A stretch of 64,000 nucleotides of DNA from Tubulanus polymorphus (Eukaryota; Nemertea; Palaeonemertea; Tubulaniformes; Tubulanidae): contig NC_134025.1 of NCBI RefSeq assembly GCF_964204645.1, positions 5,771,001 to 5,835,000 on the forward strand, written 5' to 3'. Shown here piece after piece: positions 33,116 to 64,000 of this stretch. The notes beneath the pieces are model-generated. The model did not search any database and was not told the origin of the DNA. It saw nothing but the letters and a program-made list of their open reading frames with translations. Position 1 is the first letter of the stretch; each line of letters begins with the position of its first letter. A program made the position numbers and the translations under genes.

Positions 33116-33509
33116 TTAATATTTTGTACCTGAAACATCTTTCTTTTTGCGAGCTATTTCAGTTTCAAGATGAGAAATTCTTTTAAGCAAGTCTTCTTTC
33201 TTCGAGTTGAGAGGTTCTAGCTGTTGGCGAAGCTTTTCCATTCGTTCAGTAGAAGGCTCTGGTTCTTGTTCAAGTTTGCGGATACCTTCTCGAATATTTG
33301 CATCATCAATCATTGCCTGTATGATAGATCATAAACATATTTCATCCTCCTCATGAACATTAACTGTTTGCCCATAATCACAACCCTCAATACCCACCTT
33401 AGTCATTTCAGAGTTTAGAAGATCACATTTATTCTGCATTTCTTCGAGTTGTGCTTCCATAAGATTTTTCTGACTGTGGATACTTGAAGTTGATGGTGAT
33501 ATCTTTGAT
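33116..33509 (-). CDS. C-terminal tail coiled coil and stop (2 exons)
   Basis: Exons: 33398-33509 and 33116-33316. They encode a Ser-rich linker (SKISPSTSSIHSQKN), a short coiled coil (LMEAQLEEMQNKCDLLNSEM), then IREGIRKLEQE and LLKRISHLETEIARKK, ending SGTKY and the stop. Both acceptors and the 33398 donor (AAG|GTGGGT) fit in phase. Confidence 0.9.
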
Positions 33510-42500: not shown

Positions 42501-45500
42501 AGTATGTTGTTATCAAGGGAAATACTATTCTGGACAATATTTGTAGCAGTTGGTGGGAAGAATGGTCCTGTAGTGGCACATTGAACGTTTGGTGGCATCA
42601 CCGAAATATACTGAAATGAAAGAAATATCCAGAATCAGATTCATCATATTCCATACTAATATCATTACACTGAATCTTAAGAATATATATTATTTTTACC
42701 ATTTTTTTGTTCAGGTTGGAACTCAGATAGAAAACGTAAACACCACCTTCGGTAAATTTATACGAGAACAGAGTCGAAGTTGATGACGCAAGAGCCATTT
42801 GCTCAGCCAAATTTCGGAAACCACCATAATCAAATTTCGAGTTGGTGTTGTACAGATTATTCCTGAAAGGAAAATGGATGTGAGCTCATCACATATAACG
42901 AATAATCAAAAATATCTCATTCTTGTTTAGAAACATACTTGTCATAAATTGGATAATGCTCATTTGAAACTATCATGAACAACATCTCTCCATTTTCAAG
43001 GCAAATTGATGGATTTTTTATTCCTGACAGTATATTCGTTGGAGAAGATGGGGTGGTTGCAGACAGCAGACGTCTTCGTGTCTGAAAACCGCCGACAGGA
43101 TTATTGGTATAGTTTCCAGTCACAGTGCCTTTAGCATTCGATAACAATACTGATTGCAAGCTATCGGGATCAGGATCATATCCTCCAGTGATTCCATCAC
43201 TACCCATTTCCATAAAGTAGATCGCATTTGACGTATTTGATAGTGAATCACATTGACTTTTGCTGATCGAGTTGGCAGAATTGATCACTCGGTCCATATT
43301 GGATGATGGAATCTCAAACTGTAGAAAACAATTAATTCGTCAGTGATGTGGATTTGTTATTTCGCATTTTAACATCATTCTATCGAATAATGATTGTGTC
43401 ACCTTATTTGTGCCATTACGATCAGTAATACGAATGAATGGTTCCAATGGAGGTTCAGGACAATGGAAGGTAGCTCGGTTCTTCTGAGATTGACGGCATG
43501 ATGCATCACACACTTGTTCTAGGTCTTGTACTTTACACTTACATAAACCAAGCGTTCGATCATATCCAACATAGTCGGATGGTTGATCACAGAACTGTAA
43601 AACAACATAAATGTCAATTTAGCGTGGAAATCAATTTGGAGACAAGAAATGAATGTTGAATTTCACCGACCTTTTCACGACAATAGGTAACCCATTGTGA
43701 GTCTGTCATACACTGCCCATCTTGGGATCGATAACTGCCCTCTGCACATAGGTCATACACAATTTTGACACAGTCTTGTTCGCGGCCATCCATCGTTTGG
43801 TATCCAGCCTGACATGGACATGTTCTATCACTTGGCTGAAAAATCAAACATCCGGATATAAATACAGGCAAACCTACTTCATCCCTGATGTTCTTTAGTC
43901 CAATTTTAGTACTGATACCATCGATACACATACCTGGAAATCTCTGCCAGCTCCTGTGCACACGCAGGTACTCTGTCCAGTTTTAGTCTGTGCCGAATCA
44001 CCACCACAAGGGAAACAACTTTTCTGAGCAACAAGATGATTGAAATAATTGACAGGGCAGAGTAAACAGTCTACGAGACCTTCAGCTCTTTCACTAGGGC
44101 TGTACGTTCCAGGTGGACAAACAAGAGGATAAGAGGAAGACTTAGGGCAGTAGTAGCCTGAAATTGAAACATATTATAACATCATATTCTATACACAATT
44201 AGTGACAACATACCTATAATGAACTAGTTCAGAGTCTAATATTACCTGCAGGGCAAGGGTAGGAATTGGTTGAGTTGAACCCAAAAACTGCACTACTATT
44301 ACCCAAAGGCTCATCAGTAGTAGCAACAGCTTTACAAACAATGCCTGCTCTACAGGGACGACATGTTTTCCGATCAGCATCATTTCCGTATGTACCAGGT
44401 TTACAAGGCTCACATGTATCGCTGAATGTGGCACGAGGAGATCCATCATATTCTTTATATCCGAGAGGACACTTTTGAGGTTCTTTGGCACCTGAAAAAG
44501 TATTGATGAACATCTTAAGTTTCCACAATTGAGTGGCTTATAATCTATGGTTTCGAAAATGAACTGTACAAACCAGGACTTGTCCCATTGCAATCAAATC
44601 CACCGCAGTAATGACCAGCAGGACATGGTCGAGGGTAACTCGATCCCAGAGGACAATAGAAACCAGGTGGACATGGTTTTTGAGTTTCAGAGTTGTTACA
44701 ATAATATCCCGGTTGACAGATGGTTTGATTCGACGAACCCGGGGGACAGAAATATCCATCATCACAATCCACTCCAACAACAGTAGCATTTGGATCAGGA
44801 CAATAGAATCCAGCTGGACAAGAGAAGCAATCCGAGACAGGACCGGCACCGACTATATCCCTAAAAATATAATCAGTAAATCATTAAGCTAATAGGATTC
44901 ATTGCATTGAAAAAACAACCACAAAATAGATACAAATATTACCTATATGTTCCTGCAGGACATGGCTCTGGACCGTATGTTGCTTCTGTACAGTAATATC
45001 CAGGTGGACACGGACTTATTGTATAGTTTGACATAGCTTCTAAGTTGCACCAGTATCCTGCCGGGCAAGGTTTACACCAAGTTGAATTCTCAGCCCCTTC
45101 CAAATCATTATAAGTACGAAGTGGACAAGGCGTCATGGGCTGATTGAAAGCGCAGTAGTAGCCAGGGGTGCACATCTTAGCGAAAGTGGAATTTGCCGGG
45201 CATATTCGACCAGCGGGACAAACATCGCACTCAGCAGCGGATTTGGCGCCTTCAAAGTCAATTACTTTTCCAGGTGGACAGGTTTGTGGAATTTTCGTTC
45301 CTGAAGTAATAGACAGTAAATTCTAATTGCATGTCTATAGTATAGTATAGAATATTGCACTGATCAATATTTTTCAAATAACAGGTTTTTCTTACCTGCT
45401 GGACAATAGAACCCTCGAGGACAGAGTGAACCAATCGTCGTATCATTTCCATCAGGATTTGGTACCGAGTTGAAGCGGCGACAAAAGTAACCAGCGGTAC

Positions 45501-48500
45501 AATCTCCAGCTGTCCTACCACCAACACAATACATGCCTACATGAAAATATGAATCGAGAATAAATTAAGTTCATGATGAACTGTAGGATCAAGACTTACC
45601 AATACTTTTGATACTCAAGTCTAGACTCAACTTGTACTTACCGGTTACACATTCCGAGCAATCAGACTCCTGTTCTAATCCTGTAGTCGTATTAGGTGTA
45701 TACATTCCTTTTGGACACAATATTGGATTAATGGTACCATTTGGACAGTAGGAGTGTGGTGGACATACGATTGGTTGGCTACTGTTTTGCAAGCAATAAT
45801 AGCCAGCAGGGCATGTGAGGCAGTCGATAGAGCCGGTGTATGGTTGGTAGGAGCCTGAAATAAGTAGATTTAACTTTTATATTCACAAAACAATTTTCAC
45901 TATTCATTATATGACAAATATAATACAAAAACATAAGTTTACCTGGTGGACAAGCGACTGGGAGATCTGTATTCTTGGGACAATAAAATCCTGGTGGGCA
46001 AGCATAAGCCGTTGGTCTTTCTGCTGTTATTTTGGCATTATTTGGACAATAATATCGTTCAGCACATTCTCCTGATGGTTCTATTAATGCTTCACCATCA
46101 CAATAATAACCAGACTTACATGGATAACAATCGCTTTCGGCAGTGCCCGCTGTAATATTTCTCATTGTACCCCTCGGGCAAACTGTCGCATTTACAGCAC
46201 CTGAAAAAATCATGAATGCCATCATGAATCTCCTATTCAGATGCATGGCGATAATTACAAGCTCAGCATCAAATATCTTACCTTCCAAACAGTAATGACC
46301 AACAGGGCAAGGTCCATTTATACCATCATTTGGACCAGGATGTATGGAACGAGTAACACAAAGATAACCAGCAGAACAGGGGCCAGCTGGAGCCGACAAT
46401 CCAGTTACATTACAGAATTGACCAGGTGAACAGGGTAAACATTGACTTGATTCATTCAGTGAAGTGTATGGATTGAATGAGCCTAAATACAGAAAATAAA
46501 CATGTCTAGCAAACCAAATACATCACTATCTAACACATTTGGGGATGGACCCACAATCCTATAACAAATTAAATGATTTTGAAGACCAGTCTTAAGATTT
46601 TGAGCATGTGCATGCCCTAAAACTTACCCATAGGGCAAGGTATTCCATTGTTATTAGTTCCTTCTGGGCAGTAATAGCCTTTTGGACAAGGCAATGAGGC
46701 ATTCATGCCACGAACAGGACATGTCTGGCCAGATGGACAGTTAAGACAAGCGCCTGAAAAGAAAAATCATCTTAATGAAATTTTTTAATGAAAATTTTGA
46801 AAAACTATGAGACATCTAAGACTTACCTAACTCTTCCTGAGGGGCATATGTTCCTATGTCACAAGATACCTCTTTTACAGCCCCGGCAATACAGTAGTGC
46901 CCTACAGGGCAAATGTAGCCCTTAACACCATCAGTAGGATTTGGAATATTTGACCCAGTTAGACATATAAAACCAGCATTACATGGCAAACTAAAACCTA
47001 AAATTCATTGGAAGTCATTATATTAAGTATTTCTGGACGAAATAAATGCTTTAAAAGGTTTTTTGGGGACCTGATAGATTACCTCGACTCGAACTTTCTG
47101 GAGTACAGTAGTGGCCTGGTTTACAAGGCGCGCAATCAGTGAGATTTTTGTTGCCTTTATTTGTGGCCATTGTACCATCAGGACAAGGCGTTGGTATAAA
47201 GCTGCCCTCCGGACAGTAGTTACCAATCGGACAGCGGAATTCTGGAGGATTTGGAAGCCCAATGCTGCCATTACAGTAATATCTGAAAATAAGCAGCAGT
47301 GATAAAAATTTAGTTCATATGCTTCCTTTTTACCGAACGTTTGAGTAGAATAAACCTTACCCGGCAAAACAAAGACCTTCAGCATCAGAAAGACCAGTAC
47401 TCTGACAATAATAACCCGGGGGACAAGGCTGGCATTCGCTGATGGCTGATCGATGAGTTTGATTGTTGAATGTTGTAGTTGGACACGGGAACTCATTTGC
47501 ACGTTTCGTTCCATTCGGACAATAATGACCAGTTGGACACGACATGTTTGATAGTGTAGAAACAGCAAACAAAGTATTGTCACAGAAATATCCTAAAATG
47601 ATTATAGTAGAAATTTTTGTAACCTTTGCTGAATTCAGTCTGTACTAGAAATGAATATCAAATTCTAATGTACTCAACCTACCTCCCGGACATAGTTTAC
47701 ATTCATATTGGCCTACTTCATTCTGATAGTATCCATTATTGCAGCGAGTTGGAATGGCGCTGTTAGCCAGGCAGAAATGGCCAGTTGGACACATGAAGTC
47801 ATAAGGATCCGGTGTCACTTGTCCAGGTGGGCAATAGAAACCTATAGTTTTAATATTGAAAAGATAGTCAGCAAAGTGTAGGATGCACACATAATATTCA
47901 GAATTGATTTTGTAGGGCTAGCTCAGACTTATAGCCTGAACAATTTATAGCATTGATACACATAGGACTAAATAATCACTAACCTCTTGAGCAGATTCCT
48001 GATACAGTTGATTGACCAGTTTCATTACAGAAAGATCCAGCAGTACACGGAGTACATTGAGCTTGTGACTGTAATCCAGTTCCTGCTGCAAATGTTCCAT
48101 TTCTACATGGCTGTGGAATATCAGTTCCGGTCGGGCAATAATGACCAGGAGGGCAAATAACTTGACGAATCGAGGTAGATGTAGGAGGACAGTACCAGCC
48201 AGCATCGCAGTCACCAGTTGGAGTCGAGAGTCCAATAGAATCACAGTATTTTCCAGCTGTACAGTTTATCATAGCAGGAGAGCCTTCTGGACAATAATAT
48301 CCAGCTTGACATTGACCTCCATTGCTGGTTGGCTAAAATGTACATATGTTATTAGCTATCTTACCCTGGTAATACTGATTTAATAGCTGAGACAAAAGAA
48401 AACATGACTTACCATTGACTTGACAGCACCAGATTCACAATACCATCCAGCAGTACAAGGAGCGGTTGGGAAAGCATTATTATACCCTTCACAATACATT

Positions 48501-51500
48501 CCTGGAGTACATGGCAAGCACGCCGATTGTGCTGTTTGTTTAGTCAGGTTGTTAAAAGTCCCTGGTGGGCATGGATAGCTATAAGCATCAGGGGTTTGTA
48601 GTGGACAGTAGTATCCAGATGGACAGATATTTGGAGTATAATCCGATGTATTTCCATTACAGAAGTATCCTGCAGGACAGTCCAGACAAGAACTTTCGGT
48701 TGTCAAACTTTGGTATTTACCAGAAGCACATGGTATAGGGTAATCAGTTCCTCGTGGACAGTAATGGCCTGTTGGGCAGATGTGTCCAATGATTGGGTGC
48801 ACTGTTCCAGTCGGGCACTGCGTTGAATTCAGCTCGACAGGATTTGGTCGATCTGCCCCAGATATGCAGTAGTATCCTGGTGCACAATCTGATGTCGGAG
48901 CTGTTAAATTCACTCCTAGATAATCACAAACAGAAGGTTAATATAAATCAATTTGTTCCCAATGACACCAAGGAACATATGTTTAGTAGTTTTTTAATGG
49001 TTTATATCCTATCTGTGGCCACATACCTTGACAGTATTTTCCTGCATCACAAGGTGTACATTGAATTGCAGCAGCGAGTCCAGTAGAACTGCCATATGTT
49101 CCAGCCGGACAAGACTTCCGATCATGACCAGTACCATTTGGACAGAAGAATCCTTGTGGACATGGTGAACGAGTTGTAGCAACATTACCAGCAACAACGT
49201 TTTCTGGTATACAATAAAAGCCTTCAGGACACTGTTTACAGGTCGAGGCACTACTGATATCGGTATATGAACCAGCAGCACAATCTGCAGGAGCTGGTGA
49301 ACCTTGCGGACAGTGTTTACCAATTGGACATGTTTCCTGAGTACTAATGCTAGACCCAGCTGGACAATAGTAACCTGAAGTATTAAGGTAGGAAATAAAT
49401 CAATGTCTCTAAAGCTTGAGAAGACCATAAATGTATGTAAGTGATAAATATAAAAATACATACCAGGATCACAAGGTCCGGATGTAGCAGTCAGACGGGT
49501 TTGTCCACAGTATTCACCAGGAGTACACTGTTGACACTGTGCCGCATTACTGAGACCGGTCTGGTTAGAGAATGTACCAGTAGGGCAAGCACTAGGATCT
49601 AGTGTGGCACCGACACAATACGAGCCTTCAGTACATATGAGTTCATCCGCTTGTTTGGAGCCAACCGGACAATAATATCCAGGTAAACATGGACCACTTA
49701 CAGCTGTCAATCCTTAAAGAAATGTACCGTACCATTTTATATGAAATATATCTCATAAAATGTAGTTAACTGAACTATTACAAGTTTGATTTCCTACCTT
49801 GATTTCCACAGTAATAACCTCCAGTGCAATTGAGACATTGTTCTACCTTGTGTAAACCAGGAGTGGGACTGTATGTGCCCACTGGGCATGGAATGGGAGC
49901 AGCAGTTTCTTCCGGGCAGAAGCTACCAGCAGGGCAAACATCAGCTGACACACCTGTGATTACCAGTACATAACAATCATATAAAGATTATCCACATCAT
50001 TAAGTCACTGTTATTGAACAATGCTTACCTAGTGTGGGAGCTGTCATATTAGCTTGTTCTCTACAGAAATATCCAGGAGCACAAGGTCGTAGTGGAGACG
50101 CGAGACCATCTTCATCACAAGCCATACCTCCGATACACGGGGTACACTCTGATTGGGCTGTTTTTCCTGTGGCATTATTAAATGTACCTCTAGGACATGG
50201 GTACTGATATTCATATTCCGTTCCAATGGGGCAGTAATAACCTTCCGGGCACAGATACGATCCATAGAAAATGACTGGCCCAAATGTAGCATTACAGTAA
50301 AATCCAGCTGGGCATGGTTTACATGAACTGATTCCTTGGTTATCCTACAATATATCATTTTGTTAGACAATTACCATGTACAGAGAGTACGAGCTATGTG
50401 CTTAAGAAATTACAAGGATTATTGACTGTCTGAGAGTCTGCTTACTTGGTATTCACCGGATGGACATGGCTGGGCAGCACCAAGTCCACCGATACAGAAA
50501 TGTCCAGGCGGGCATGAATAGTTTCCTGGTTTTGCAGTTATTTGACCTTCGGGGCAGTAGTGGCCAGCTGAACAATTTCCTGTTGGATTTGCGAGCCCTT
50601 CGACGTCACAATATTTTCCTGTTCAAATTTTTAAGTATATAATCATTCCAAGAACACGAGTGAGACATTTATGATATATTTCTGATATAGACTTTACCTT
50701 CAGTGCAGATCTTACAACCCGAAGGTGAAGAATTTCCTTCTGTGTCCAAATAATATCCAATACCACATGCAGTGGGTGCAGAGCTTCCCGCAGGACAATA
50801 AAATCCTCTCGGGCAGATATTGCCAGTAATGTTATCCGTAGGACTATGACCAGTTGCAGCTAGAGTGCAGTAATAACCTGTCAATTTAGAAATAAACATT
50901 ATACCGAGGAATCTGTATATGTGTCATTTAATGTCAAACAAGAGAAATATGTTTAAAATACAAAATTATTACCTTGATTACACAAAGCAGTAGGTAATGA
51001 TAACTCCTGAGTGGCACAGTATGAACCAGGAGTGCATTTTGTAGGCTGAACACTGGATTCTGGACAGAATGCACCAACTGGACACCGTCCCCCTTCTGAG
51101 GGATTAATCGGCATAGACTGTGTACTGCCTCCACTGCAATACCACCCAGCACTATTAATAAAGTAGATTTCAAGAATAAATTAGAGTTATGTTTCGTTTC
51201 CAATAAAAATCTTACTCAAGAGATAAAGCTTAATTCACATGACTAACCTGCAGTTATTGGTAGGATTTGTGTTACCATTTCCTTGGCAATACATTCCACC
51301 TGTACATGGTAAACAGGCTGTGGCATTTGTCTGAGTTGTTTTAGGGTTGAATGTTCCAGGAGCACATGGATACTGTGCTGAATGCTCGGTTGCCTCAGGA
51401 CAGTAGTGACCACTTGGACACGTGGTATCCAAGTAAGTTGTAGCATTTGCAAGACAGAAATATCCAGCAGGACAATTAACGCATGTAGGCTGCCCTTCTT

Positions 51501-54500
51501 GGTCCTGATACGTTCCCGGGGCACATCCTGTTGGTACTGTACTGCCGAGAGGACACATAAATCCTCGAGGGCAAATGTCTCCAAAACCTTCAAAAACATG
51601 AACATCATAAAAAAGAATCAAACAAATTAATCTAATCTTTTTAAGATGTATGTTAAGAGATGTTACCTGTATGGCCACCGAGAAGTGGACACGATGGTGG
51701 ATATGAACTATTTGTGTTTGAATTATCAGGATTAGGTCGATCAACACCCGACTGGCAATAATATCCCGGAGAACATAAACCAGTTACAATAGTGGCTCCT
51801 TCAACTGAACAATACCTTCCTCCATCACAATCAGTACACTGCTGAACCTATCGAAATTGAAATCAAACATCAGCAAAAATGTCGTCGCAATTTACGTGTT
51901 ATTAAGGTAGGTAATCAATTTAAAGATTACAAACCCTGTATAGGTTGGTTTGATCACTGTATGTTCCACGAGGACATGGCTGCCAATTTAATCCTGTGCC
52001 ACTCGGACAGTAGTATCCAGCCGGACAGTCATGATATCCAGACTGTGGATCACCTGCTGTAACATTTTCAGGCAGACAATAAAACCTTCAATGATAAAAC
52101 AAACATCAATTGTCAGTCATATTCGAACGGTATATACATCTGGCATATTACATGAAATACCAGTTATATAGAAAACATACAAGCACCAAGGTTTAAGTAC
52201 TATCTACTTACCCATCTGGACATATATCGCACTGCCACATTCCTGTTCTATTAGTATAGTAACCAGGTTGACATGACTTCGGCTGGTCAGATCCTGTTGG
52301 ACATTGTAAGCCAATTGGGCACACAATTGGATTGGGAACATTCGATCCCTCAGGACAGTAGTAACCTTGCTGACACAGGCCTTCAGGATCAATTAGTCCA
52401 TTCTGTTGGCAGTACCATCCAGCTGGACAAGCGGTGCAATCAGCATCTTTTGTTAGACGAGTTGCATTTGACCAAGTACCACTTTGACACTTCACAGGTG
52501 TATGGGTACCTAGAACAACAAAATGTTATATCAACATCTGAAATTTCGATTCATCTATCTAAGGGGGTTAATCATCATCTAGAATCAACATCTGATACCT
52601 TGAGGACAGTATCTTCCAGCGGGACAAATAATCTCAAAGGACGAACTAGATCCACTCGGACAGTAGAAACCTGCCGAACACTCAGCCCTTGGTGCAGTCA
52701 TAGCTAGCGAATCACAGTACCAGCCTAAATGCAAAATAAATATTCTCCATTTAACCATTCAATCTTTTTATCTGTATCAAATGACGAAGAAGCAATAGAA
52801 AAACATTACCAGCAGCGCATTGAAGGCAATCCGATTCATTTCGCAGTCCGGTCATATTTGAGAATGTAGTCACAGGACAAGAGATCGGCTCAGTTGTCTG
52901 CTGTGGACAATAGAAACCAGGTGGACAAATATTTGCGTAAATATCTTGTAAGGGTGCTGCTACACGTGCTCCAGAGCGGCAATAGTAACCAGCACTACAT
53001 GGTAATACTGGATAAATAACACCACCTCCAGGACAATAGTACCCACCTGGAAAAATATGAAATACACGTACATCATTACATTACAGATACCGGTGCATGA
53101 ACACATTGTAATCTATGTAATCATAAGAACTCTTATTCTTTCTCACCCAAACACGGCAAACATTCTGCATCACTGCGGAGACCTGTTGCATTGTTGAATG
53201 TACCGGCTGGGCATGGCCATTCAGTTGCCATCTTAGTTCCAGCTGGACAGTAATGACCCTCAGGACACTGATACAGAGTAACATTGATGACAGCGGATAA
53301 TGAATTATCGCAGTAAAAGCCAGGTAAACACTGTTTACAAGTCGATTGTCGAACATCATCCTGATAAGTTCCCGATGGACAAATCTGTGGTGAACTGGCA
53401 TTGTTGATACAGTAGTATCCAAGAGGACATTCATACCCACTTGGGTTTTGAACGGTCTGTCCCGTTGGACAATAATAACCTGAAATTGGACATGAATGGT
53501 GTTTGTAAGCTACGTTTACAAATCCATCAGGCTGAAGAAAAATTATGCCATAAGTTGTGTGTAAGTCATTCTAGACAGAAAACTGAAACTTACCATCATC
53601 GCAAGGCCCATCAACTTGTGCCAATCCACTGCTCTGACAATAATATCCAGCTGTACAAGGTATACACCAGGAATCATTTTCAGCGCGGAAACTCGGTTGA
53701 TAAAAGCCAGGTGAACAGGGTACCTCAACGCTACTACCCTCAACGCAGTAGTGTCCAGGACGACAAGAGTTTCCTTTAATAGATATTCACAGTGCCAGAT
53801 TAAGAAGTTAGAAGTAATTTATCATACAGAATGAAAATTCGCTCACCTCCATAACCATTTGGTGTAGCACGACTCGAATTACCAGAACAGTAATAACCAG
53901 CCAGACAAGGACCACGAGGAGTTGACATAAGTTCTGCATCACAATATTTACCAGGATCACAGGGTAGTGCAGCTGCACTTCCTTCAGGACAATATTCACC
54001 TACAATGATTATCATACATGTACCAGTATTCTAACCTGTTTGAATAGATCATGATTTGAATAATAAGTAAAACCTACCTAGGTAACATTTGCCTCCCTGT
54101 GGACTGGATGGTTGGGCGAGCCATGAACCGCTTGTACAGTACCATCCTGGATCACATGGGCCAGTTACCGCAGACATGCCTTCATTCGCACAGTAATAAC
54201 CTGGGGTACACTGTGTGCAGGATATCGGACCGGATTGAACTGAAATTTCAATTCGAAGAGATTAATGAATCAATACTTTCATGAGTTTTCTTAGAATTTA
54301 AAACTAATGAAGATAATAATTTACGTGTCAAATTGTTAAACGTTCCCTGCGGACACTTGTACTGTATATCATATTTCGTGCCATTAGGACAATAGTGACC
54401 CGATGGACAGGGTTGGTCAGTGTATGTAGTTGAATTAGCCACACAGTAATATCCTGCAGGACAATCTTTACACGAAGGCTTTCCAGTTTCATCCTACAAA

Positions 54501-57500
54501 ATACATAAAACTTTTGTCATCACATTATGTTTCAAACTATCATACGGTACTCTTATATTCTCATTTCGTTTCAAAGTGAAGAAACAGTTATATATGAAAA
54601 TATGAATAACCTGATATGTTCCAGCATCACAACCAATTGGATTCACAGTAGCCCCAGGACACTTGTGCCCGAGTGGACAGATTCCTCCTACACCAACATG
54701 ACTTCCAGATGGTGAACTACGATCAACACCAGTTGTACAGTAATAACCTGGATCGCAGTCTCCCACAGGGGATGTCAGGTTTGTCACATCACAGTACATG
54801 CCTCCTCTACATTGCTGACATTGACTGGAATGAGACAGTCCGAGTTCATTGCTGTAAGTTCCAGCTGGACATGGTGACCAGTTTGTTCCTGTTCCATTCG
54901 GACAGTAAAATCCACGCGGACACAAGCGATGACCTGATGATGAGTTTCCTACAAATAATAATCATCAAATAGTCTTCCAGTAATCAAAATTCAATTCATT
55001 TTGAAGGAAGCTAGGTTTTATGTTCGGTAACCTACCTGCAATAACCTCTTCAGGAACACAATAATAACCTTGTGGACACTCTAAGCAATCTGCCTGCTGC
55101 GTTAAATTGGTGAATGTACCAGGGGTACATGGTTGTGGCCGAGGACTACCAACTGGACAGTGTAAGCCTATTGTGCAAGGAGTCTCAATCGGGTTGGGAA
55201 CATCGTTTCCACCAGGGCAATAGAAACCAGCATCACAGTCACCAGTTGTTGCAGATAACCCTATAAAAGGAACATTTTCATATTACCATGAACATTCATT
55301 TTCTATCACAAAGACCTTTTAGGTTTTAGAATTTTTTCAATAGTTCATTTACCTGTACCACCACAGTATTTCCCTTCGTCGCATTGTGTACACTGAGAGA
55401 TATTGTGATTACCAAGAGCATTCGTGTAAGTTCCTCTTGGGCATGGAGTTGGATTTCCAGAACCTTCAACACAGTAGTGTCCAATGGGACAGACAGTTGT
55501 TGTAGATACATTAGATCCCAAAGGACAGTAATATCTAGAATAAAAAATAAGTATAATTTACTTCAAATTACTCTTTAAGATATAAATCTAAAATATAAAT
55601 TCACTGTAGTCATAACTTACCCGGCTGAACAAAGACCCGATGTACCAACCATGTTTACATCTGCGCAGTAACTTCCTGCAGGACACTGAACACAGTCAGT
55701 TTCCTGTTCTAATCCAGTCACATTACCATAGCTACCCTTAGGACAGGGGGTTGGGTCAGCAGTACCTTGTAGACAGTAGTATCCCAGCGGACAAATGTTA
55801 GCATCGGCTCCTTTAAAGAAAATATTCGGAACATTTTCGATCAATTAGCCAAGTCTCAGAACTGACGAAAGTACCGAATTGAGGCCAATATTACCTTGAT
55901 TAGGAGCAGAAATATTGGCATACTGCTTACAGAAATATCCAGCTGAACATAAATCAATAGGTGTCACCATACCAGGCATCGGACAGTAATATCCTCCCAA
56001 ACATGGAGAACAATCATTTTCTTGTCTTAGACCTACAAATTATGACACAAAGATGTACATGAAATTCAGATTTCAAATAGCATGTATTTGTGTATTCATT
56101 CTAAACGGCAATACAAAAATGATTTTGTGCTTTGTTCAACAATGATTTTTCCATCATCATGAATGAACAAATTACCTGTCCTATTGTTGAATGTGCCAAC
56201 CGGACATGGGCTTTCTTTACTGTATCTAGTACCAGCTGGACAGTAATAACCCATCGGACAGATAGTGGTCGAGTTATCCAGTACAACAATGTTCATAGTA
56301 TTATCGCAGAAATATCCAGCAGGACAAACTTTACACGATGGCATAGTCTCTTCATTTTGGTAGGTACCATTATCACATCGAATCGGTGCATCGACACCAG
56401 ACGGACAATAATGACCCACTGGACATCTGTAATAAGTATACAAGATACGTTACTAAAACTAGTGATTAATTCATTAACGAAATGGGTGCTCTGGAGGAAA
56501 ATTTCTTGCCTGTACTCATACGGTGCCGTTTGATTCTGACCGAGAGGACAGTAATAACCGCTAGAACAATCGGCCAATGGAAATTCACGACCAATGCCCG
56601 GACAATACTTTCCAGCAGTACATAGTTTACAGTCACTGACGTCAGTTTGTTGCGTAGCGTCGAGGTAGGAGCCGGTTGGGCATGCGGATTTATCTGCGGA
56701 ACCTTGCGGGCAGAAATGACCGACTGGACAATCATTTCCGGTTACACCATCCGTAGGAGCTGGATCGCTAGATTTCAGCAGACAATAGAAACCTGCGAGA
56801 AGAGAAATCAATAACTCAAAACCACAAATTTCTTGATAAATTACCTCCTTAAAGAAGTGTAAATACCTGCACTACATGGACCAGTAGGTAAAGCTAAACC
56901 AGCTGTCTGACAATATTTGCCCGGATCACACGGAGTCGGTTGGTAACTTCCTTCTGGACAGTAGTCACCCGGTTGACATTGGCCTCCGTCTGAAGTTGTG
57001 TTTGCTAGGCTTGAATTTACTGTGCAGTAAAAACCTTAAAATAGAAATTTTTAAGGGGAATTTATAGAAGTATTAACAACGAATCAGATATTGATACCAA
57101 CAATAAATCAATGATCCTACCTGGCGCGCATGGTCCAGAAGGCCAATTGAGACCATCTCGTTCACAGTATTGTCCCGGTGGGCAACCAATACAGTCATTC
57201 AGGTTGCGACCCATAGTGGCGTTGAGGTACGTCCCAGCTGGACATGGATACTGATAGGCACTCTGAGTGGCTTCAGGACAGTAATAACCTCCTGGGCAGG
57301 GGAAATCAATATATGATGACAACCCTAAATAATAGAATGTTTGGTTCAACCTTGTGTTTCGAAGCAATTCAATAACAAACAAAATAAGTTATGAATCTAA
57401 GACATTAATCATAAACATGAACATAATTATAAATGACACCATGAACTCAAAAAACAATGTTGAATAGTAACATAAACATGGAGATCAGTGACCAAACAAT

Positions 57501-60500
57501 CTAATGATCATTATTTACTGAAATAATCAATACTTACAATATGAAGTTCCTTTTATTAGTTAAATGAGAAATTATCAGGGAAGATAAGACATTTATCTTT
57601 CATATTGGTTAAATGATTAACTATTAACAGGGGAATGAAAGACAACTCACCGGTGGGACAATAATAGCCAGCTGGACATGGATGACACTGAGATAGACCA
57701 GTTTCATTGCTGAAACTACCGGCACCACACTGAATCGGAACCGTGGATCCAACTGGACAGTAGTGTCCTTCTGGACATGTTCCTCCTTTACCAGTCTGTC
57801 CTCCTTAAAGTGGAAAATTGAAACATAACCCACAGGTAATCATTGATGATTGAATTATTTATTGTCATGCAAATTCATTAAATTGAGACGAACCTGATGT
57901 GTCACATGATCCATTACCAGTTGGTTTCATTCTATCTATACCATAGTTACAGTAATGTCCTGCAGCACAGAGTCCTTTAGGATTAACCAATCCATCAACA
58001 TCGCAGTAATGACCACCAGGGCATGGAGAACATTGTGATGAATCAGCAAGCCCAGTTATATTGTTATGTGTCCCTCGAGGACATGGCTGCCAATTGATAC
58101 CAGTACCATCAGGACAATAGTGACCTTCTGGACATTCTTGAACCAATGTGCCAAGAATACAGTACCTGATTGTATGACAAAACCAAATCATTGTTGATAG
58201 CAGAAATACATATGAACGTTTTACCATATGATCCCAAAATATTGATGTGGCTTACCATCCAGCTGGGCATATGTAGCATGAAGAACCCATTGTATGATTC
58301 ATGTAAGTACCATTAGCGCATGGTACTGGCTGTGGAGAGTTGATCGGGCAATAATGTCCCTCTATACAGGGAAAATCAGCAGGTTGGGATGTATTCTGAC
58401 CTCCCGGACAATAGAAACCAGCAGCACATGGTCCAGATGTTTGATTTAAACCTTCATGACCACAATAATCGCCTGGTGTACATTGTGTACATTGCTCACT
58501 GCTATTCAATCCATGATAAGGATTGAATGATCCCTAAAATTGCATAAACATTGCAATGAACTTTGAAACATCCAACAAAGATTTGTACTGTACAAGCTTA
58601 AAAAATATTCTCTTAATTTCTAACATGCCATATACCTGAGGACAGCGTTCAGGAAAAGCACTCTGAATGGGGCAATAACTCCCTGGTGGACAAATAGCAT
58701 TTCTCCTAGATTTGGATCCTACGCTGCAAAAATATCCCGCATAACAGAGTCCTAAAAAGAAAAGAAAAGCTTAACGAACCCTGAACTTAAGCAAAACCAA
58801 ACTTAAGAAATCTGTTGTTAGTTTTACCTTCATTATCAAGAAGTCCAGACTGTTCGCAGTACTTTCCAGCTTCACAAGGAGTACATTCAGATTGATTTCT
58901 CAATCCTTCCCGGCCACCATATGTTCCTGGTGGGCATCCTACTGGCTCTGTGGTACCCTCCACACAATAAGATCCTAGATAATCAAATCAACATTGTAAC
59001 CATACATGTATTCTTTAATTACACAAAATCTACATTTGATTATTACTTACCTTGTGGACAAATATTAGCATCTTCACTTTGATTGGGTGATGATGACATG
59101 GCAAAACGTCTGCAGTAATAACCAGCCATGCAAGGGCCGGTGGGTGAAGTCTTTCCGATTTCTCCACAGAATTCTCCACCCGAACACGGGCTGCAATCTG
59201 AACTTGAATTATAACCAATGGCATTTCCATACGTTCCAAGAGGGCAGCCAAACTGGTCACTCCTTTCAGTACCTAAATAAAGATATAGCATCATATGAAG
59301 CACAACTGATGTCATCCTAGCGGGCACATTTGCACCTATGCATATCATATCGAAATAATTCCATCAACTTACCACGAGGACAGTAATATCCAGCTGGACA
59401 TTTAATTGTATCATTCAACACAACTATACCATTGCTATTATCACAGAAATATCCGCCAGGGCAAGTCAGACATTGCCATTCTCCTGGTTGGTCCTGATAC
59501 TGTCCACTAGGGCATATGATTGGCTGCACACTACGTTCAGGACAGAAATGACCAACTAAACATGGATTGGCAGCTGCTGTTCTCTCATTAGTAGGACAGT
59601 AGAAGCCTTGAGTGCAGTTTCCTAGAATATGTTAACAAGAAATGCAATGCTAAAATATTTTTGGTTTATGTATTCTTCGAGTAAGTTGCTTTTACAGTGC
59701 ACTGGTATGTTTATGAGTACCGGTAACTATTTTCACCAACCTGTAGTAGTTGTAAGATTATATTCTTGACAATACTCTCCTCCAGTACATGGCAAACAAT
59801 CTGATGCATTCTGGTTTCCAATCGTTGGACTGAATGTGCCAGGGCCACACGACAGTGGCCACGATGACCCTTCTGGACAGTAGTAACCTGCTGGACATAT
59901 ATCGCCAGTCGAACCATCTGTAGGCTTGGATAATATTGCCCGAGATGTACAGTAATACCCTGCAGAGCAAGAACCTGTTGGCACCGCTAGACCATCGAAC
60001 TGACAGAACTGACCACCAGGACATGGCAAAGGATCTGCTGAACCTAGAAATAGGCAAACGGTACATAGTTCTCATGATATACATACATGTACTTTCTGAG
60101 GTTTGGAGAATGAAATGAAATATTGGGATAAAATTTGAAATTTAAACTGATTTGTATAAATACCTTCAGGACAGAAATATCCTGGTTGACATTTTCCACC
60201 ATTCACAGTATCATTTGCCATAGTAGCACCACTTGGACAATACCATCCAGCGGAACAGTTACCAGTTGGCTGTGAATTACCATTACCTTCACAATACTGA
60301 CCACCAGAACATGATTCACAATCAGATAAGGATGTTCCAGTTGTCTTTTGATTAAATTTACCAGGTGGACATTTGTATTCGGTAGAATATGTTGTACCAT
60401 TCAAGCAGTAGTGACCTATGAAAAATAAAAAAAATTGAATTATTCCTTGCCATTCCTTTGATGATTTGTAGCACAAACAGATGAAGCTCACGCACCTGGT

Positions 60501-63500
60501 GGACAAGGTGTGCTGATAAACTCTGTAGAATTTGTTAAACAGTAATAACCAGCAGGGCATTCTAAGCATTCAGCCATTCCCAATCTATCGGCATAAGTTC
60601 CTGCAGCGCAAGGCAGGGGAAGTATTGTTCCCTGAGGACAATGATTTCCAAGTGGACACACACCTCCTAAACCTCGGAAATAAGATTGGGAAGGGCATGA
60701 CGAGTCATTGATTGAGCTGTTAGTTCGAGCAGGTTCAGGACGATCAACTCCAGAGATACAATAAAATCCTGAAATAACAATATTTCATTTTCAATTTCAG
60801 CTAAGCAAAACATTGACCATGCCAAGCATTTTGAAAGGTGATCAATGATGTTTGTCCATCAATCAAACCTTCAAGATACCGTAACTAACCTGCTGCACAT
60901 TCTCCTGATGGTGTTGTAAGATGTTCTCCTTGACAGTATGAACCCCCAGTACATGGTAAACACTGGGATACGTCTGAGATACCTTCCTGACTACTGTATG
61001 TGCCAGCAGGACAAGATTGCCAGTTAATTCCAGTACCTGAAAGTCAAAAACCCAATAGAATAAGCTATAAAGACTATTTCAAATATCAGCTAATCGCTGC
61101 TAATGCTTCTACGGTACATACCTTGAGGACAGAAGTATCCAGCTGGACAAGGCTGACTTCCCAATGAGGCATTGTGAGGCTGAACTGGTGAACAGTAGAA
61201 TCCTGCCGGACAGACATCGCAAACAGCTTGACCAGATGTGTTTGTGTGATATCCAGGTAAACATTCCTTTAATAAAAGTAAAATATCATCACACACAAAT
61301 AACACAGAAAATGCATATGCATATAAGATACCAGTACATATAGTCACCTTATATATTTCACTGCCATTTGGACAATAAACACCAACTGGACAAAGATGTT
61401 GAGCTGGATTTGGAACTGATATTCTAGTTGGACAATAGTAGCCTCCCCAACATTCATGACTAACAGATGTCATTCCTAGAGTAGATAACAGTTGAATCGT
61501 AATAAGCAATTTGTAAAATGTATAACCAAACTTTAGATACGGTAACTTTGCAACAATTTTTCTACCTGAATTAGGACAGTAAAATCCGCCAGAACAATTT
61601 GAGCACTGAGATTCCATCTGTAGACCAGGCGTACTTGACCATGTACCTGGCGGGCAGGGTGTAGGCTGAGCACTGCCTTCAGGACAATAGGAGCCAGGTG
61701 TACACTGAGTATCAGTAGCCGTACTAGCTCCTCCTGAGCAGAAATATCCAGCTGAACAGGGTGGTCCAGGATCAGTCATATTCCAGTTCGGGCAGTGATA
61801 TCCAGCGGTACAATTCTGACATTCACTAAGAATCTCACGTCCAGTTGCATTATTGTATGTACCCGGTGGGCAGGCCGTCGGTAAAGCTGAACCGGATGGA
61901 CAATAATTTCCAATTGGGCAAATATCTGCATCTTCATCAAAAAGTGGAGTAGAGCTATTCGAACCAGATTTACAGAAATAACCTAGAAAAATAATTCATG
62001 AGAGGTATGGAGGAAGCTGTAGAAATTATGGCACTGAAAATCAATGTTCTGATATACAAAGTATATGTACCCGCTCTGCATGGTCCTGTTGGTAAAGCTA
62101 AACCAGGTGTTTCACAGTATTCGCCTGCAGCACAAGGCAAACAGTCACTAAGTTGTGCGCGATGCGATATGTTATTGTATGTTCCAGGAGGGCACGGGAA
62201 TTCTGTTGAATATTTCGTACTCTCCGGACAATAAAATCCTGTCAGAAAAAAATTGTAGAAAATATTTGAAGAAACAATGACATCTGAACAGAATCAAACA
62301 AAACGAATCAATTCCAACGATTTTTAAAATCACCAACCTTCAGGGCACGCTGTGTTGTTATATAGCACAACAGGATCCATAGTATTGTCGCAGTAATATC
62401 CCAGAGGACAGTTCTTACACGATGCTTGTCCTACTTCATCTTGATATGATCCAGATAAACAACGCAATGGTTGTGAACTTCCAGCCGGACAATAATGACC
62501 TGAATGTGTTTCATTGCAAATTAAGTTAATTGGGCCCAAAAGAAGGAAGGGTGCTAAACATGGCAATTGAATCCGTTACCGATATTGATATTAATCATAC
62601 CTAATGAACAGTTGTATTCTGAAGGATTTGGACTAGCTTGCCCACCGGGGCAATAATAACCAGCACTACAGAGACCAGTTGGTACACCATTTAGAGATCC
62701 TGCACAGTAAGAGCCTGGCAAACACGGCTCACAATCCAGTAGTCCTTTATTACCGGTTGAGTTTACAAAGGTTCCAGGTCCACATGGCCGAGCTGATGCG
62801 CTGGCTAGCGGGCAGAATGTTCCAACCGGACAGATATCACCTGAAATTCATGTATTGATTTGTAGTTAACTCAATGTAAAGATACCGGTATCTACATTCA
62901 AATAATGTCATTTTTAATGCTTCTATACAACTTACCTGTAATATTTCCATCACGAGGATTGGGAATTTTAGCTCCAGACCTACAATAATATCCGCTATCA
63001 CACACTCCAGAAACCTTAGATAGGTAATCACTTGCACAATACAAGCCCGGTGTACATGGAGTTGGATGAGAAGAGCCGACAGGACAGAACGTTCCCGCCA
63101 AACAATAGCTTCCCCACGTTTTGTTAACTGGATTGCTCGATGTTGCTCCGGTCGTACAGTAATATCCCCCATCACACGGGCCAGTTGGTGCATCTAATGC
63201 TGCCCTATCACAATAATAACCCCCTGAAAATAATAACAGCAGAAAGGATTTTGATTTTGACCATTTTGAGAAATTCCCAATGTCAAATGATCACTTAAAG
63301 AGATTCCTTACTAATCAGCTATTGAATACAACTAGTACAAACCTGGACAATCGAGACAATCATGAGGAGCAGTACGCATAGTGAGATTGTTGTACGTTCC
63401 AGCAGGGCATGGATTTTGATTGATCGATTTTGTGTTCAAGGGACAGTAGTATCCAGGAGGACATTCATAAGGAGTATAGCTACTGCTTCCTGATGGGCAA

Positions 63501-64000
63501 TAATAACCTATACAATGAAAATAGAGCGATTACCACAGATCATTAAATCATAGCTAACATTCAATTCAATTTTGGATTTTTAACTAATATACTTTACCTG
63601 CAGGGCAATCTTTGCAAGCAGCTAAACCCTGTACATCGGCATAGGAACCATTTTCGCATGGTATGGGATTGGTGCTTGCCAAACCACCGGGACAATAATG
63701 CCCGATTGGGCAAATTCCACCATAGCCACGTTGGTTATAATTATAACATGTGCTATTATAGGGCAGAGATGTATCATTCCCTGGTGGATAATTGCGATCG
63801 ACACCATATGCACACCAGTGACCAGGGGCACAGTCTCCTGAGAACAGAATGAAAACAGTGCAAGGAAAAGTGTCATCTGTGATTGCATAAGTGAATTATT
63901 CATTTCATTCTAATATTGGATATCTTGGATTTGTAGCTATAAAGAATACCTGCAGGATTTGCAAGATGTTCGGAGTCACAGTATTTTCCAGCGGGGCATG
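33116..64000 (-). CDS. Giant GCC2/GCC3-repeat transmembrane protein, at least 92 exons, 5'-incomplete
   Basis: Reading from 64000 down to the TAA at 33116-33118, I placed 92 exons with GT-AG introns whose phases agree at every junction. They encode about 7,365 residues in the window. Order: extracellular cysteine repeats of the GCC2_GCC3 (ephrin-receptor-like) type with signatures such as CPAGYYCP.GT and C..C..G.YC (residues 1 to about 4650); a membrane-proximal region (to about 4970); one transmembrane helix; then a cytoplasmic part of about 2,380 residues with coiled coils, a TG/P repeat cluster and a C-terminal domain. Signal peptide and start lie beyond the right edge. GCC repeats occur in SCUBE, ELAPOR and SVEP1, but none of those has this length or tail. 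The role is unknown; adhesion or matrix/ligand binding is inference. Confidence 0.93.
33677..34850 (-). CDS. Cytoplasmic C-terminal globular domain, unrecognised (4 exons)
   Basis: Exons: 34697-34850, 34222-34613, 33922-34134, 33677-33831. Composition changes sharply from coiled coil to a mixed, hydrophobic-core sequence of about 300 residues: DYDTPYIDVKDAQW, SPSQFVIYRFGVFITHIL, TLLLATNLPPNNYTNNAF, KILFIRKERMESIGDFV, VLHCLSHIKVDDLTNDANP and AQSLIGGGMVTGRAALDIAF. The stretch LHCLSHI resembles a zincin-like helix lacking the catalytic Glu; that is only a resemblance. The domain looks folded and conserved in character, but I cannot assign it. Confidence 0.9.
34942..37901 (-). CDS. Cytoplasmic long coiled coil (10 exons)
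   Basis: Exons: 37654-37901, 37327-37575, 37032-37236, 36669-36868, 36415-36570, 36048-36320, 35789-35965, 35556-35707, 35294-35468, 34942-35205. Almost every residue is in Glu/Lys/Gln/Leu-rich helix. A short basic signature of the form L.A(K/R)(K/R)..R recurs (WRNKLRARKDKRRKM, LLAKLAAKKRMREEM, EAKLKARRNKRKA). At roughly 690 residues it could span about 100 nm if continuous (arithmetic estimate at 0.15 nm per residue). Likely dimerising or scaffold-forming; the partner is unknown. Confidence 0.9.
37993..39717 (-). CDS. Large cytoplasmic exon: end of repeat cluster, linker, coiled coil (575 codons)
   Basis: The largest exon of the gene. It starts with the last TG/P units (VPIQLGKKAVDLITGDLSPV), then a basic patch (RGHKKRKPP), a helical region (EEEIAARRGYWRRQRNGEEE) and a long coiled coil. 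A disordered stretch follows (NLIQGNNTNINIFGNEQQPQ). A second coiled coil contains LRQKLLDRRRQKKKDLHKKH. Phase 1 at both ends. The plus-strand open frames over it are shadows. Confidence 0.92.
39807..41229 (-). CDS. Cytoplasmic TG/P-rich repeat cluster (4 exons)
   Basis: Exons: 41005-41229, 40330-40908, 40060-40245, 39807-39977; the repeats run on into the start of exon 37993-39717. The unit is about 15-20 residues with the pattern (D/H)P.(T/S)G...P(V/I)..., for example TIHPETGTVYPVGGSHTDPV, SGEPIPILSVSIDSKTGDVI and TGQLLPILIGMNM. A helical insert (EESMMETALKELAKTRVHMK) interrupts the cluster at 40060-40245. The spacing suggests stacked short beta hairpins (inference). I cannot name the family. 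Confidence 0.9.
41306..42339 (-). CDS. Cytoplasmic juxtamembrane segment and first coiled coil (3 exons)
   Basis: Exons: 42150-42339, 41668-42062, 41306-41579. They begin VLFRRYGWSKNIYSV, then a polar linker, then a helical stretch with heptad spacing (YKQKLTELEAELERRKGLG, FLMVLERQHDLMEED). They continue with REAIRLLKEHAVKLQRGQL, then a small Gly-rich segment (LGAWGVLGQGIGG). No known domain is recognised. Confidence 0.9.
42422..42610 (-). CDS. Transmembrane exon
   Basis: This phase-0/phase-0 exon of 63 codons ends the extracellular part (YISVMPPNVQCATTG) and encodes WEMIAVLLMAFVLVIILI and more Ile/Leu. That is a single hydrophobic helix of about 24 residues, followed across the splice by LFRRYGW. 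The Arg pair on the C-terminal side fits a type I orientation with the long Lys/Glu-rich part inside the cell. The open frame continuing past the donor (SKTNSN) is intronic. Confidence 0.93.
42700..43835 (-). CDS. Membrane-proximal ectodomain, possible cupredoxin-like domain (4 exons)
   Basis: Exons: 43671-43835, 43403-43594, 42939-43318, 42700-42862. The first two are a Cys-rich segment not of GCC type (CPCQAGYQTMDGREQDC, LGLCKCKVQDLEQVC). The third and fourth are Cys-poor: FMIVSNEHYPIYDK, FDYGGFRNLAEQM and FSYKFTEGGVYVFYLSSN. The G-V-Y-V-F strand and the upstream His/Tyr segment resemble a cupredoxin-type beta sandwich; this is pattern-level inference. QTRRRLLS at about 43070 is a basic site where a furin-type protease could cut, also inference. 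Confidence 0.85.
43934..46200 (-). CDS. Juxta-terminal GCC repeats outside the regular array (7 exons)
   Basis: Exons: 45943-46200, 45642-45854, 45397-45537, 44943-45300, 44574-44860, 44246-44491, 43934-44157. GCC-type repeats continue (CPPGYYCTEATYGPEPCPAG, CPPGFYCPLGSSYPRPCPAG), but the GVDR and DN marks are missing or unrecognisable. The last two exons drift to a spacing like GTYGNDADRKTCRPCRAG, closer to the GCC3 form found near the membrane in SCUBE/ELAPOR-type proteins (inference). Confidence 0.9.
46282..48915 (-). CDS. Ectodomain super-repeat copy 6 (8 exons)
   Basis: Exons: 48413-48915, 47984-48332, 47683-47841, 47361-47592, 47083-47282, 46827-46997, 46628-46753, 46282-46482. Landmarks: YYCISGADRPNPVELNST near 48860 and YFCDNTLFAVSTLSNMSC near 47570. 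The 168-residue exon at 48413-48915 looks like a fusion of what are separate exons in other copies. The copy closes with SFNPYTSLNESSQCLPC (near 46470), the counterpart of SFNPYHGLNSSEQCTQC in copy 2. Confidence 0.9.
49027..51847 (-). CDS. Ectodomain super-repeat copy 5 (9 exons)
   Basis: Exons: 51667-51847, 51248-51587, 50973-51151, 50698-50877, 50446-50618, 50029-50344, 49798-49953, 49464-49712, 49027-49374. Landmarks: YYCQSGVDRPNPDNSN near 51740. The DN mark is here a degenerate FYCNATFGPVIFYGSYLC near 50290. GTGHDRKSCPAGTYGSST near 49120 is the weakened NW mark of the next copy. Antisense or out-of-frame open frames over this stretch read as Cys-poor Leu/Val-rich peptides and are shadows. 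Confidence 0.91.
51935..54948 (-). CDS. Ectodomain super-repeat copy 4 (10 exons)
   Basis: Exons: 54611-54948, 54325-54493, 54078-54239, 53847-53999, 53594-53773, 53147-53479, 52810-53046, 52599-52724, 52212-52509, 51935-52085. Landmarks: GTGTNWSPCPAGTYSNEL near 54880, YYCTTGVDRSSPSGSHVG near 54730, FYCDNSLSAVINVTLYQC near 53300. The last exon carries GTGLNWQPCPRGTYSDQT (near 51990), the opening mark of copy 5. Many NxT/NxS sequons suggest heavy N-glycosylation. Confidence 0.91.
55036..58165 (-). CDS. Ectodomain super-repeat copy 3 (10 exons)
   Basis: Exons: 57894-58165, 57651-57803, 57121-57324, 56867-57034, 56516-56792, 56176-56426, 55895-56032, 55621-55810, 55353-55534, 55036-55260. Landmarks: GTGINWQPCPRGTHNNIT near 58090, HYCNYGIDRMKPTGNG near 57930, YFCDNTMNIVVLDNSTT near 56290. 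The exon at 56516-56792 uses a GTACAG donor chosen by phase. The 326-bp intron at 57325-57650 is the longest in this part and contains nothing I recognise. Confidence 0.91.
58256..60768 (-). CDS. Ectodomain super-repeat copy 2 (8 exons)
   Basis: Exons: 60496-60768, 60164-60415, 59741-60043, 59373-59621, 59051-59272, 58828-58974, 58636-58751, 58256-58533. Landmarks: FYCISGVDRPEPARTNSS near 60740 and YFCDNSNGIVVLNDTIKC near 59430. The last exon opens with SFNPYHGLNSSEQCTQC and ends in phase 2 inside AGW|YC. It is the shortest full copy, two exons fewer than copy 1 or 3. Confidence 0.92.
60890..64000 (-). CDS. Ectodomain super-repeat copy 1 (exons 1-11 of window)
   Basis: Exons: 63950->64000, 63598-63837, 63343-63507, 62936-63223, 62601-62840, 62338-62499, 62071-62238, 61566-61982, 61348-61475, 61122-61266, 60890-61036. 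Landmarks: HWCAYGVDRNYPPG near 63800; YYCDNTMDPVVLYNNT near 62370; TGINWQSCPAGTYSSQEG near 61020, which opens the next unit. All introns are phase 1 except the one after 61348-61475 (phase 0). The first exon is cut by the window edge (reads CPAGKYCDSEHLANPAG). Confidence 0.92.

Follow-up and report, generated by a model that had tools for sequence, protein, structure and literature searches.

The window analysed here, a 64,000-nucleotide stretch of contig NC_134025.1 of the nemertean Tubulanus polymorphus, encodes on its minus strand a cysteine-rich protein in which blocks of ~690 residues recur about every 3.0 kb. The locus raises the question of whether these blocks were multiplied with their introns in place or received their introns afterwards. 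The first-pass annotation had taken the former view: blocks some ten exons long would have undergone segmental duplication, far enough back for their introns to have diverged. We modelled the gene across the window and its right flank, compared the repeat units with each other and with those of a paralogue, and evaluated the intron positions against several null models.

Gene model and protein architecture

Our own exon-chaining gene finder, trained on the cysteine-rich frames of the region, was run along the minus strand between window positions 76.5 and 42 kb. After removal of 11/111 modelled exons that fell outside 43.9-75.7 kb, the remaining 100 (75.6 to 43.9 kb), spliced in silico, gave a cysteine-rich ectodomain of 7,144 residues without a stop, extending 11.6 kb beyond the right window edge; this model did not place the N-terminus of the protein with confidence. 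Ectodomain exons had a median length of 200 nt and introns of 90 nt. Read-through of 96/99 ectodomain introns led to a stop or frameshift, making them necessary to the exon model. Two doubtful micro-exons were kept in all counts, one of 12 nt at window 57538-57549 and one of 3 nt in the sister gene described below (C8:11025013-11025015).

Toward the C-terminus, the ectodomain ends in a cysteine-rich flank (43934-47440, minus strand throughout) that can be aligned to the paralogue. It is followed by a juxtamembrane region (42700-43835), for which a Pfam scan gave no family above cut-off, an exon with a transmembrane segment, WEMIAVLLMAFVLVIILIIIIL (42422-42610), and a cytoplasmic tail containing DP.TG..IP repeats and a long coiled coil (33130-42339, 3' end uncertain). 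Juxtamembrane region, membrane segment, and tail together form 2,607 amino acids without a stop. In the exon model, the cysteine-rich ectodomain is thus followed by the juxtamembrane region, a single hydrophobic segment, and a long charged coiled-coil tail; the segment and the coiled coil were recognised by eye. The best explanation of the locus is that the gene, which lies for the most part within the window, encodes a giant membrane protein with a single pass, having ~7,100 cysteine-rich residues outside the membrane and ~2,200 inside as modelled, and we consider this reading as a whole probable.

Several other features were observed along the gene. DP.TG..IP(V/I) repeats occupied window 39807-41229 (minus strand) of the cytoplasmic tail and matched no Pfam family above cut-off; a genome search with this part of the tail found no further copy beyond the window gene. 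Both the window gene (~43080) and its paralogue (~10999.5 kb on C8) had an RRRLL motif ahead of the transmembrane segment, possibly a processing site. N-terminal residues 0-620 (window coordinates 75618 to ~72124, outside the window) formed a separate array of ~33-residue cysteine modules with self-match offsets such as 95-100, 130, 160, and 190, and with weak matches to the ELAPOR1 and NCD3G models under their cut-offs. On the plus strand, neighbouring long open frames occurred at window 2105-24440, one with a gelsolin repeat above cut-off (23073-23960), which may be supervillin-like. Genome-wide, the glutamate receptor ligand-binding family had 77 exon-level matches, and a single exon, when compared, was closest to GluN3A. 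A photoprotein query of the genome gave one weak match (E 0.001), and a GFP query gave none, though its positive control also went unmatched; the receptor and photoprotein results suggest an animal source.

Super-repeat units

A six-unit profile matched exactly six end-to-end copies of 676-695 residues at 1016-1064 bits, which keep the same phase and contain few gaps. All are on the minus strand: U1 (63757-66921, residues 1842-2524, 1039 bits), U2 (60706-63754, 695 aa, 1035 bits), U3 (57909-60700, 676 aa, 1016 bits), U4 (54700-57909, 679 aa, 1042 bits), U5 (51703-54706, 691 aa, 1064 bits), and U6 (48823-51694, 688 aa, 1042 bits), followed by a partial unit, U7p (47266-48814, 390 aa, profile positions 3-397, 430 bits). 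U1 lies nearly all beyond the window, with its C-terminal end at 63757-64000. The cysteine-rich flanks of the array gave only pieces of 32-225 bits against the unit profile, out of phase (74-225 bits in the C-terminal flank).

The period of ~690 residues and the great divergence described by the first-pass annotation agree with these units, whose full-length protein identity was 0.44-0.49 at any separation. Its six super-repeats within the window hold as to tandem order, but the landmarks used to count them mark five full units (U2-U6) plus U7p; extension to the right, which it had proposed for counting all copies, added U1, the sixth full unit. Likewise, the proposed start of the range at 46282 is an exon edge, but lies beyond the end of the array at 47266. 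G[VIA]DR..P was present at all six places expected (63785, 60731, 57922, 54710, 51728, and 48839), and (Y/F)(Y/F)CDN at five of six (62384, 59437, 56300, 53304, and 47576), the other, near 50.29 kb, being weakened to FYCNATFGPV (exon 50029-50344). GTG.NW..CP.GT matched at four sites (60999, 58069, 54857, and 51962) and, as claimed, was weakened at the fifth, where exon 49027-49374 has GTGHDRKSCPAGT.

One-piece self-BLAST of the whole protein returned zero off-diagonal rows and was replaced by fragment searches. Between residues ~1840 and 6330, most 120-residue fragments found their best match 675-695 residues away or at a multiple of this distance. For a register test we took fragments every 20 residues across the six units and scored whether the best match was the homologous column of another unit. 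This was the case for 186/202 fragments of 90 aa, 172/203 of 60 aa, and 150/204 of 40 aa, contrary to the outcomes that had been named as refuting the super-repeat, namely a short period only or landmarks aligning no better between units than within them. A super-repeat above the short-module level is thereby confirmed. Each unit holds 27 C..G..C anchors and 72-73 cysteines, with 72 columns being cysteine in all six units. Inner periods were weaker, column shifts of 78, 208, 280, and 416 being among those that stood out within the unit profile.

Paralogue on contig C8

All 118 matches listed in a genome search with U4 fell at two places, the window gene and a sister gene on contig C8; the search scored 66/125 candidates, and a miss there does not prove absence. 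In the sister gene there are four full units, scoring 642-691 bits, besides several that are truncated. Its model kept 80/154 exons, those dropped being outside 11000340-11052720 together with five doubtful ones between 11012300 and 11018000. The flanks of the two arrays were alignable on both sides at 40% and 43% identity, the latter over 687 aligned positions of the C-terminal flank, and the C8 gene too has a coiled-coil tail, recognised by eye.

The four full C8 units, without the truncated ones, were used for intron counts and for a ten-unit tree, from which U7p was left out. In the tree, a branch at 99/98 divided window units from C8 units. The order among the window units was unresolved, and among the C8 units V2 and V4 alone formed a pair, at a modest 86/87. 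Long end branches make the grouping unsure. Identity among window units was slightly above that between window and C8 units (0.44-0.49 vs 0.40-0.45). This two-sided split with little inner order suggests as probable that each gene amplified its units largely on its own, that amplification came shortly after the two genes split, or that exchange within each gene followed it.

One C8 stretch, 11029758-11031656, is free of stops and introns and matches the 670-residue U4 query from residue 63 to residue 668. It was modelled as a single exon of 1,893 nt, and the unit to which it belongs, V1, has two introns. In the N-terminal part of the paralogue (C8:11052586-11079146, loci L010-L013), several modelled exons were exactly 150 nt long in phase 0-0 with one repeat each, and near-identical copies were found ~4.7 kb apart. 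These exons, unlike the super-repeat, seem to have been copied together with their introns.

Intron positions between units

U1-U6 contained 58 introns at 50 sites, 43 of which were private to one unit. Shared intron pairs numbered 9 of 136 possible, no site was common to more than three of the six units, and 14/15 unit pairs had at most two introns in common. Across 283 comparisons of an intron site with another unit, the other unit was uninterrupted within +/-8 codons in 227 and shared the exact site in 18. Introns near unit ends (columns <45 or >640) had differing columns or phases among units, and U3 had none there. The divergence of introns reported in the first-pass annotation is thus a difference in position, not in sequence alone.

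Introns had a context preference. A glycine codon was split in phase 1 by 66/99 ectodomain introns, and about half of all ectodomain introns were at glycine AG|G. Glycine sites carried an intron at 51/260 AG|G vs 8/450 TG|G, a contrast inflated by the splice model, which itself favours AG|G. Exon lengths were far more even than those from random breaks at glycine codons (CV 0.36 vs 0.95 +/- 0.09).

The amount of sharing has to be read against this preference. Random insertion weighted by splice context gave 5.9 +/- 2.5 shared pairs vs 9 observed (p = 0.14), and with U7p included, 11/160 pairs were shared vs 7.5 +/- 2.7 for random glycine-codon sites. A context-blind null, in which the introns of each unit were shifted round, gave 1.4 +/- 1.2 vs the same 11, a value reached in 0/5000 shifts. 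Only when a null took the glycine or AG|G preference into account did sharing fall to chance; the excess over the context-blind null reflects preferred sites or some inheritance, two sources that the counts distinguish incompletely. Between window and C8 units 7/180 pairs were shared, with 7.4 expected under the glycine-codon null, and within the C8 units 4 were shared vs 1.5 expected (p = 0.06). In the flanks outside the arrays, the paralogues had one exact intron site in common (16 and 9 introns on the N-side, 10 and 8 on the C-side).

Two other explanations were rejected. Near-misses within 15 nt were fewer than chance (8 vs 16.3 +/- 4.2), so intron sliding does not explain the differing positions. 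All-vs-all BLAST of the 99 window introns returned one 19-nt pair, and consequently no introner family, as would be expected of copies of one mobile intron, was seen.

A local exception was found in U1 and U2, which had three successive introns in common (columns 207, 287, and 342); the exons between them measure 240 and 162 nt in each unit. Taken for this pair by itself, such triple sharing has a chance of 0.0065, which rises to 0.07 when the best of 15 pairs is considered. Identity between the two units reached 0.60 around the shared introns, above the rest of the pair, and at least one duplication or conversion may therefore have carried introns.

Origin of the array

Copying of ten-exon blocks predicts recurring intron positions, and these were mostly absent. 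The internal tandem duplication proposed in the first-pass annotation therefore stands, but its copying of ready-made exon blocks is not supported, with 43/50 sites private and overall sharing at the level of the context-aware nulls; the local U1-U2 exception does fit it. The small number of positions in common among copies indicates that the introns probably came after the block had multiplied, and amplification first with introns later is the history we think probable. It builds on the observed super-repeat, unit divergence, mostly private intron sites, splice context, and paralogue.

Under this history, tandem duplication of an intron-poor coding block of ~690 residues with ~27 C..G..C anchors would have yielded six and a half copies in the window gene and, in its C8 sister, four full copies together with pieces. 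Eight to eleven introns would afterwards have entered each window copy, largely independently, and their entry would have gone on until exons were evenly ~200 nt; one C8 copy would still have only two. From the star-like tree we infer that the duplication was old and quick, and the ancestral unit was presumably intron-poor, rather than all of its introns having been replaced. Counting against late gain, observed sharing exceeded the means of the context-aware nulls in both window units (9 vs 5.9) and C8 units (4 vs 1.5).

That excess, slight in both genes, fits a different history, in which duplication copied about ten exons at a time, introns included, and nearly every intron was later lost and replaced at a new site. 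Sharing far above the context-blind null fits it as well, as do the three U1-U2 introns in a stretch of high local identity. We nevertheless regard it as unlikely, given the predominance of private sites, the 14/15 unit pairs sharing two introns or fewer, the deficit of near-misses, and the single exon that spans most of one C8 unit; it also requires both massive loss and massive gain. Distinguishing full turnover after block duplication from late gain would take an outgroup species.

Gene conversion could have kept the units alike for a time and so hidden their true age. The clustering of window units apart from C8 units (99/98) and the one U1-U2 stretch more alike than the remainder are what such concerted evolution would leave. 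Yet the units are 51-56% different in protein with mostly private introns, and identity among window units is barely over that with C8 units, which makes this quite unlikely as an account of the array; conversion, if active, ceased long ago. The notion that there is no super-repeat, only short modules with landmarks recurring by chance, can draw on the inner column shifts and the ~33-residue repeats of the N-terminal 600 residues but is refuted by the fragment self-search, the register test, and a profile on which full units score >1000 bits in phase, leaving it a negligible probability.

Tandem copies within one gene have genome, expression, and, in part, selection in common, which makes them a clean system for testing at which places introns insert and when their gain stops. 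The ten full copies in two genes provide 90 modelled intron placements (58 and 32), with AG|G preferred, and even exon sizes in the window gene. According to passages of a review (PMC3488318), recent paralogues retain intron positions and ancient eukaryotic ones do not; by that description the window units resemble ancient paralogues rather than recent ones.

Sequence and structure relatives

Pfam family. The Ephrin_rec_like cut-off (PF07699, 23.1 bits) was reached by 7/18 listed matches at the gene (contig C1, matches up to E = 1), one of them only together with its neighbours. U4 as a whole scored 17.6 bits, under the cut-off. The ectodomain is thus a member of this Pfam family through weak modules. 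A Pfam scan of U4 (E up to 1) listed only Ephrin_rec_like, with Ig and Fn3 absent, and window 48380-48937 stayed under the TNFR_c6 cut-off at 15.3 vs 29.4 bits.

Solved structures. A profile of 13 window exons searched against solved chains matched Mst1, a mastigoneme protein of Chlamydomonas, at E = 2.3e-16 over 98 profile positions in three stretches; TNF receptor 21 was next, with E 2.1e-5 at best. A single-sequence PDB search with U4 gave no match at E 0.01. One AlphaFold2 model was weak (mean pLDDT 58.5), and Foldseek with this model returned no row at E 0.001 or better, its top two rows being weak matches to Mst1 (E 0.011 and 0.020). This low-confidence model has fold matches in ELAPOR1 (best Z 7.1, over 52 residues), the calcium-sensing receptor, Mst1, and TNF receptors, which we take only as small disulfide modules. 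The ectodomain is best explained as a string of small C..G.YC modules, rich in disulfides and of the TNF-receptor/Ephrin_rec_like type.

Predicted function. The ectodomain contained 150 N-glycosylation sequons vs 51.6 +/- 5.5 in shuffles, or about three times as many. The protein may function as a glycosylated rod or tether: a heavily N-glycosylated disulfide rod, its period set by the super-repeat, would hold something away from the membrane, and the coiled-coil tail would tie it to the cell interior. Each unit would presumably span ~40 nm, assuming TNF-receptor dimensions. A bolder proposal is twofold, that the protein is an animal counterpart of mastigonemes (a glycosylated disulfide filament with its own membrane anchor and coiled-coil tail, its 690-residue super-repeat setting a long axial period) and that the locus is at the same time a natural replicate experiment in intron gain, in which nine of ten old copies of an intron-poor block (six in the window gene, four on C8) gained eight to eleven introns each, for the most part independently, and one has two. 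That both hold is distinctly improbable. Counting against the mastigoneme part, a choanoflagellate study (PMC9671500) reports S. rosetta to be without an Mst1 or PKD2 homologue by BLAST.

Comparison with known systems

Our literature search in one open library found no description of this gene, which is not proof of its absence from print. The closest solved sequence to the window exons is Mst1 (8tx1, 8wa2, 9b4h), a protein of 1,987 residues from the mastigonemes of Chlamydomonas. Apicomplexan CRMP and GCC2-GCC3 proteins are likewise cysteine-rich and are described as having GCC2/GCC3 domains; they are parasite proteins, likened here by description only.

Titin (connectin) has super-repeats of 7, 11, 6, and 10 domains according to sections of PMC12241362, and the likeness to the window gene is that small modules form a fixed higher-order unit that is itself repeated. 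Titin's modules are Ig and Fn3 inside the muscle cell, whereas those of the window gene are disulfide modules in an ectodomain. In the same sections the middle-Ig segment of titin has one exon per Ig, while exon edges in the window gene vary among units. The window protein is built like titin, yet is not a titin: a cysteine-rich module protein can bear a titin-like order in its ectodomain, which prompts one to ask what its long period corresponds to.

For the introns, the nearest parallel is molluscan hemocyanin. Parts of PMC7931591 describe internal introns that differ among tandem units, with about half of the internal sites unique to one unit, and propose independent gain at conserved proto-splice sites; parts of PMC8599328 describe saturation by small exons and phase-1 linker introns between units, with one exception reported. 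Hemocyanin as so described and the window gene both have tandem paralogous units in one gene with internal introns mostly not in common. They differ at the unit boundaries, where a linker intron was not found in the window gene (differing columns and phases, none in U3), and the proteins are unrelated. The window gene would add a second, unrelated case alongside hemocyanin. Its super-repeat with scattered introns is a new combination, not a new category.
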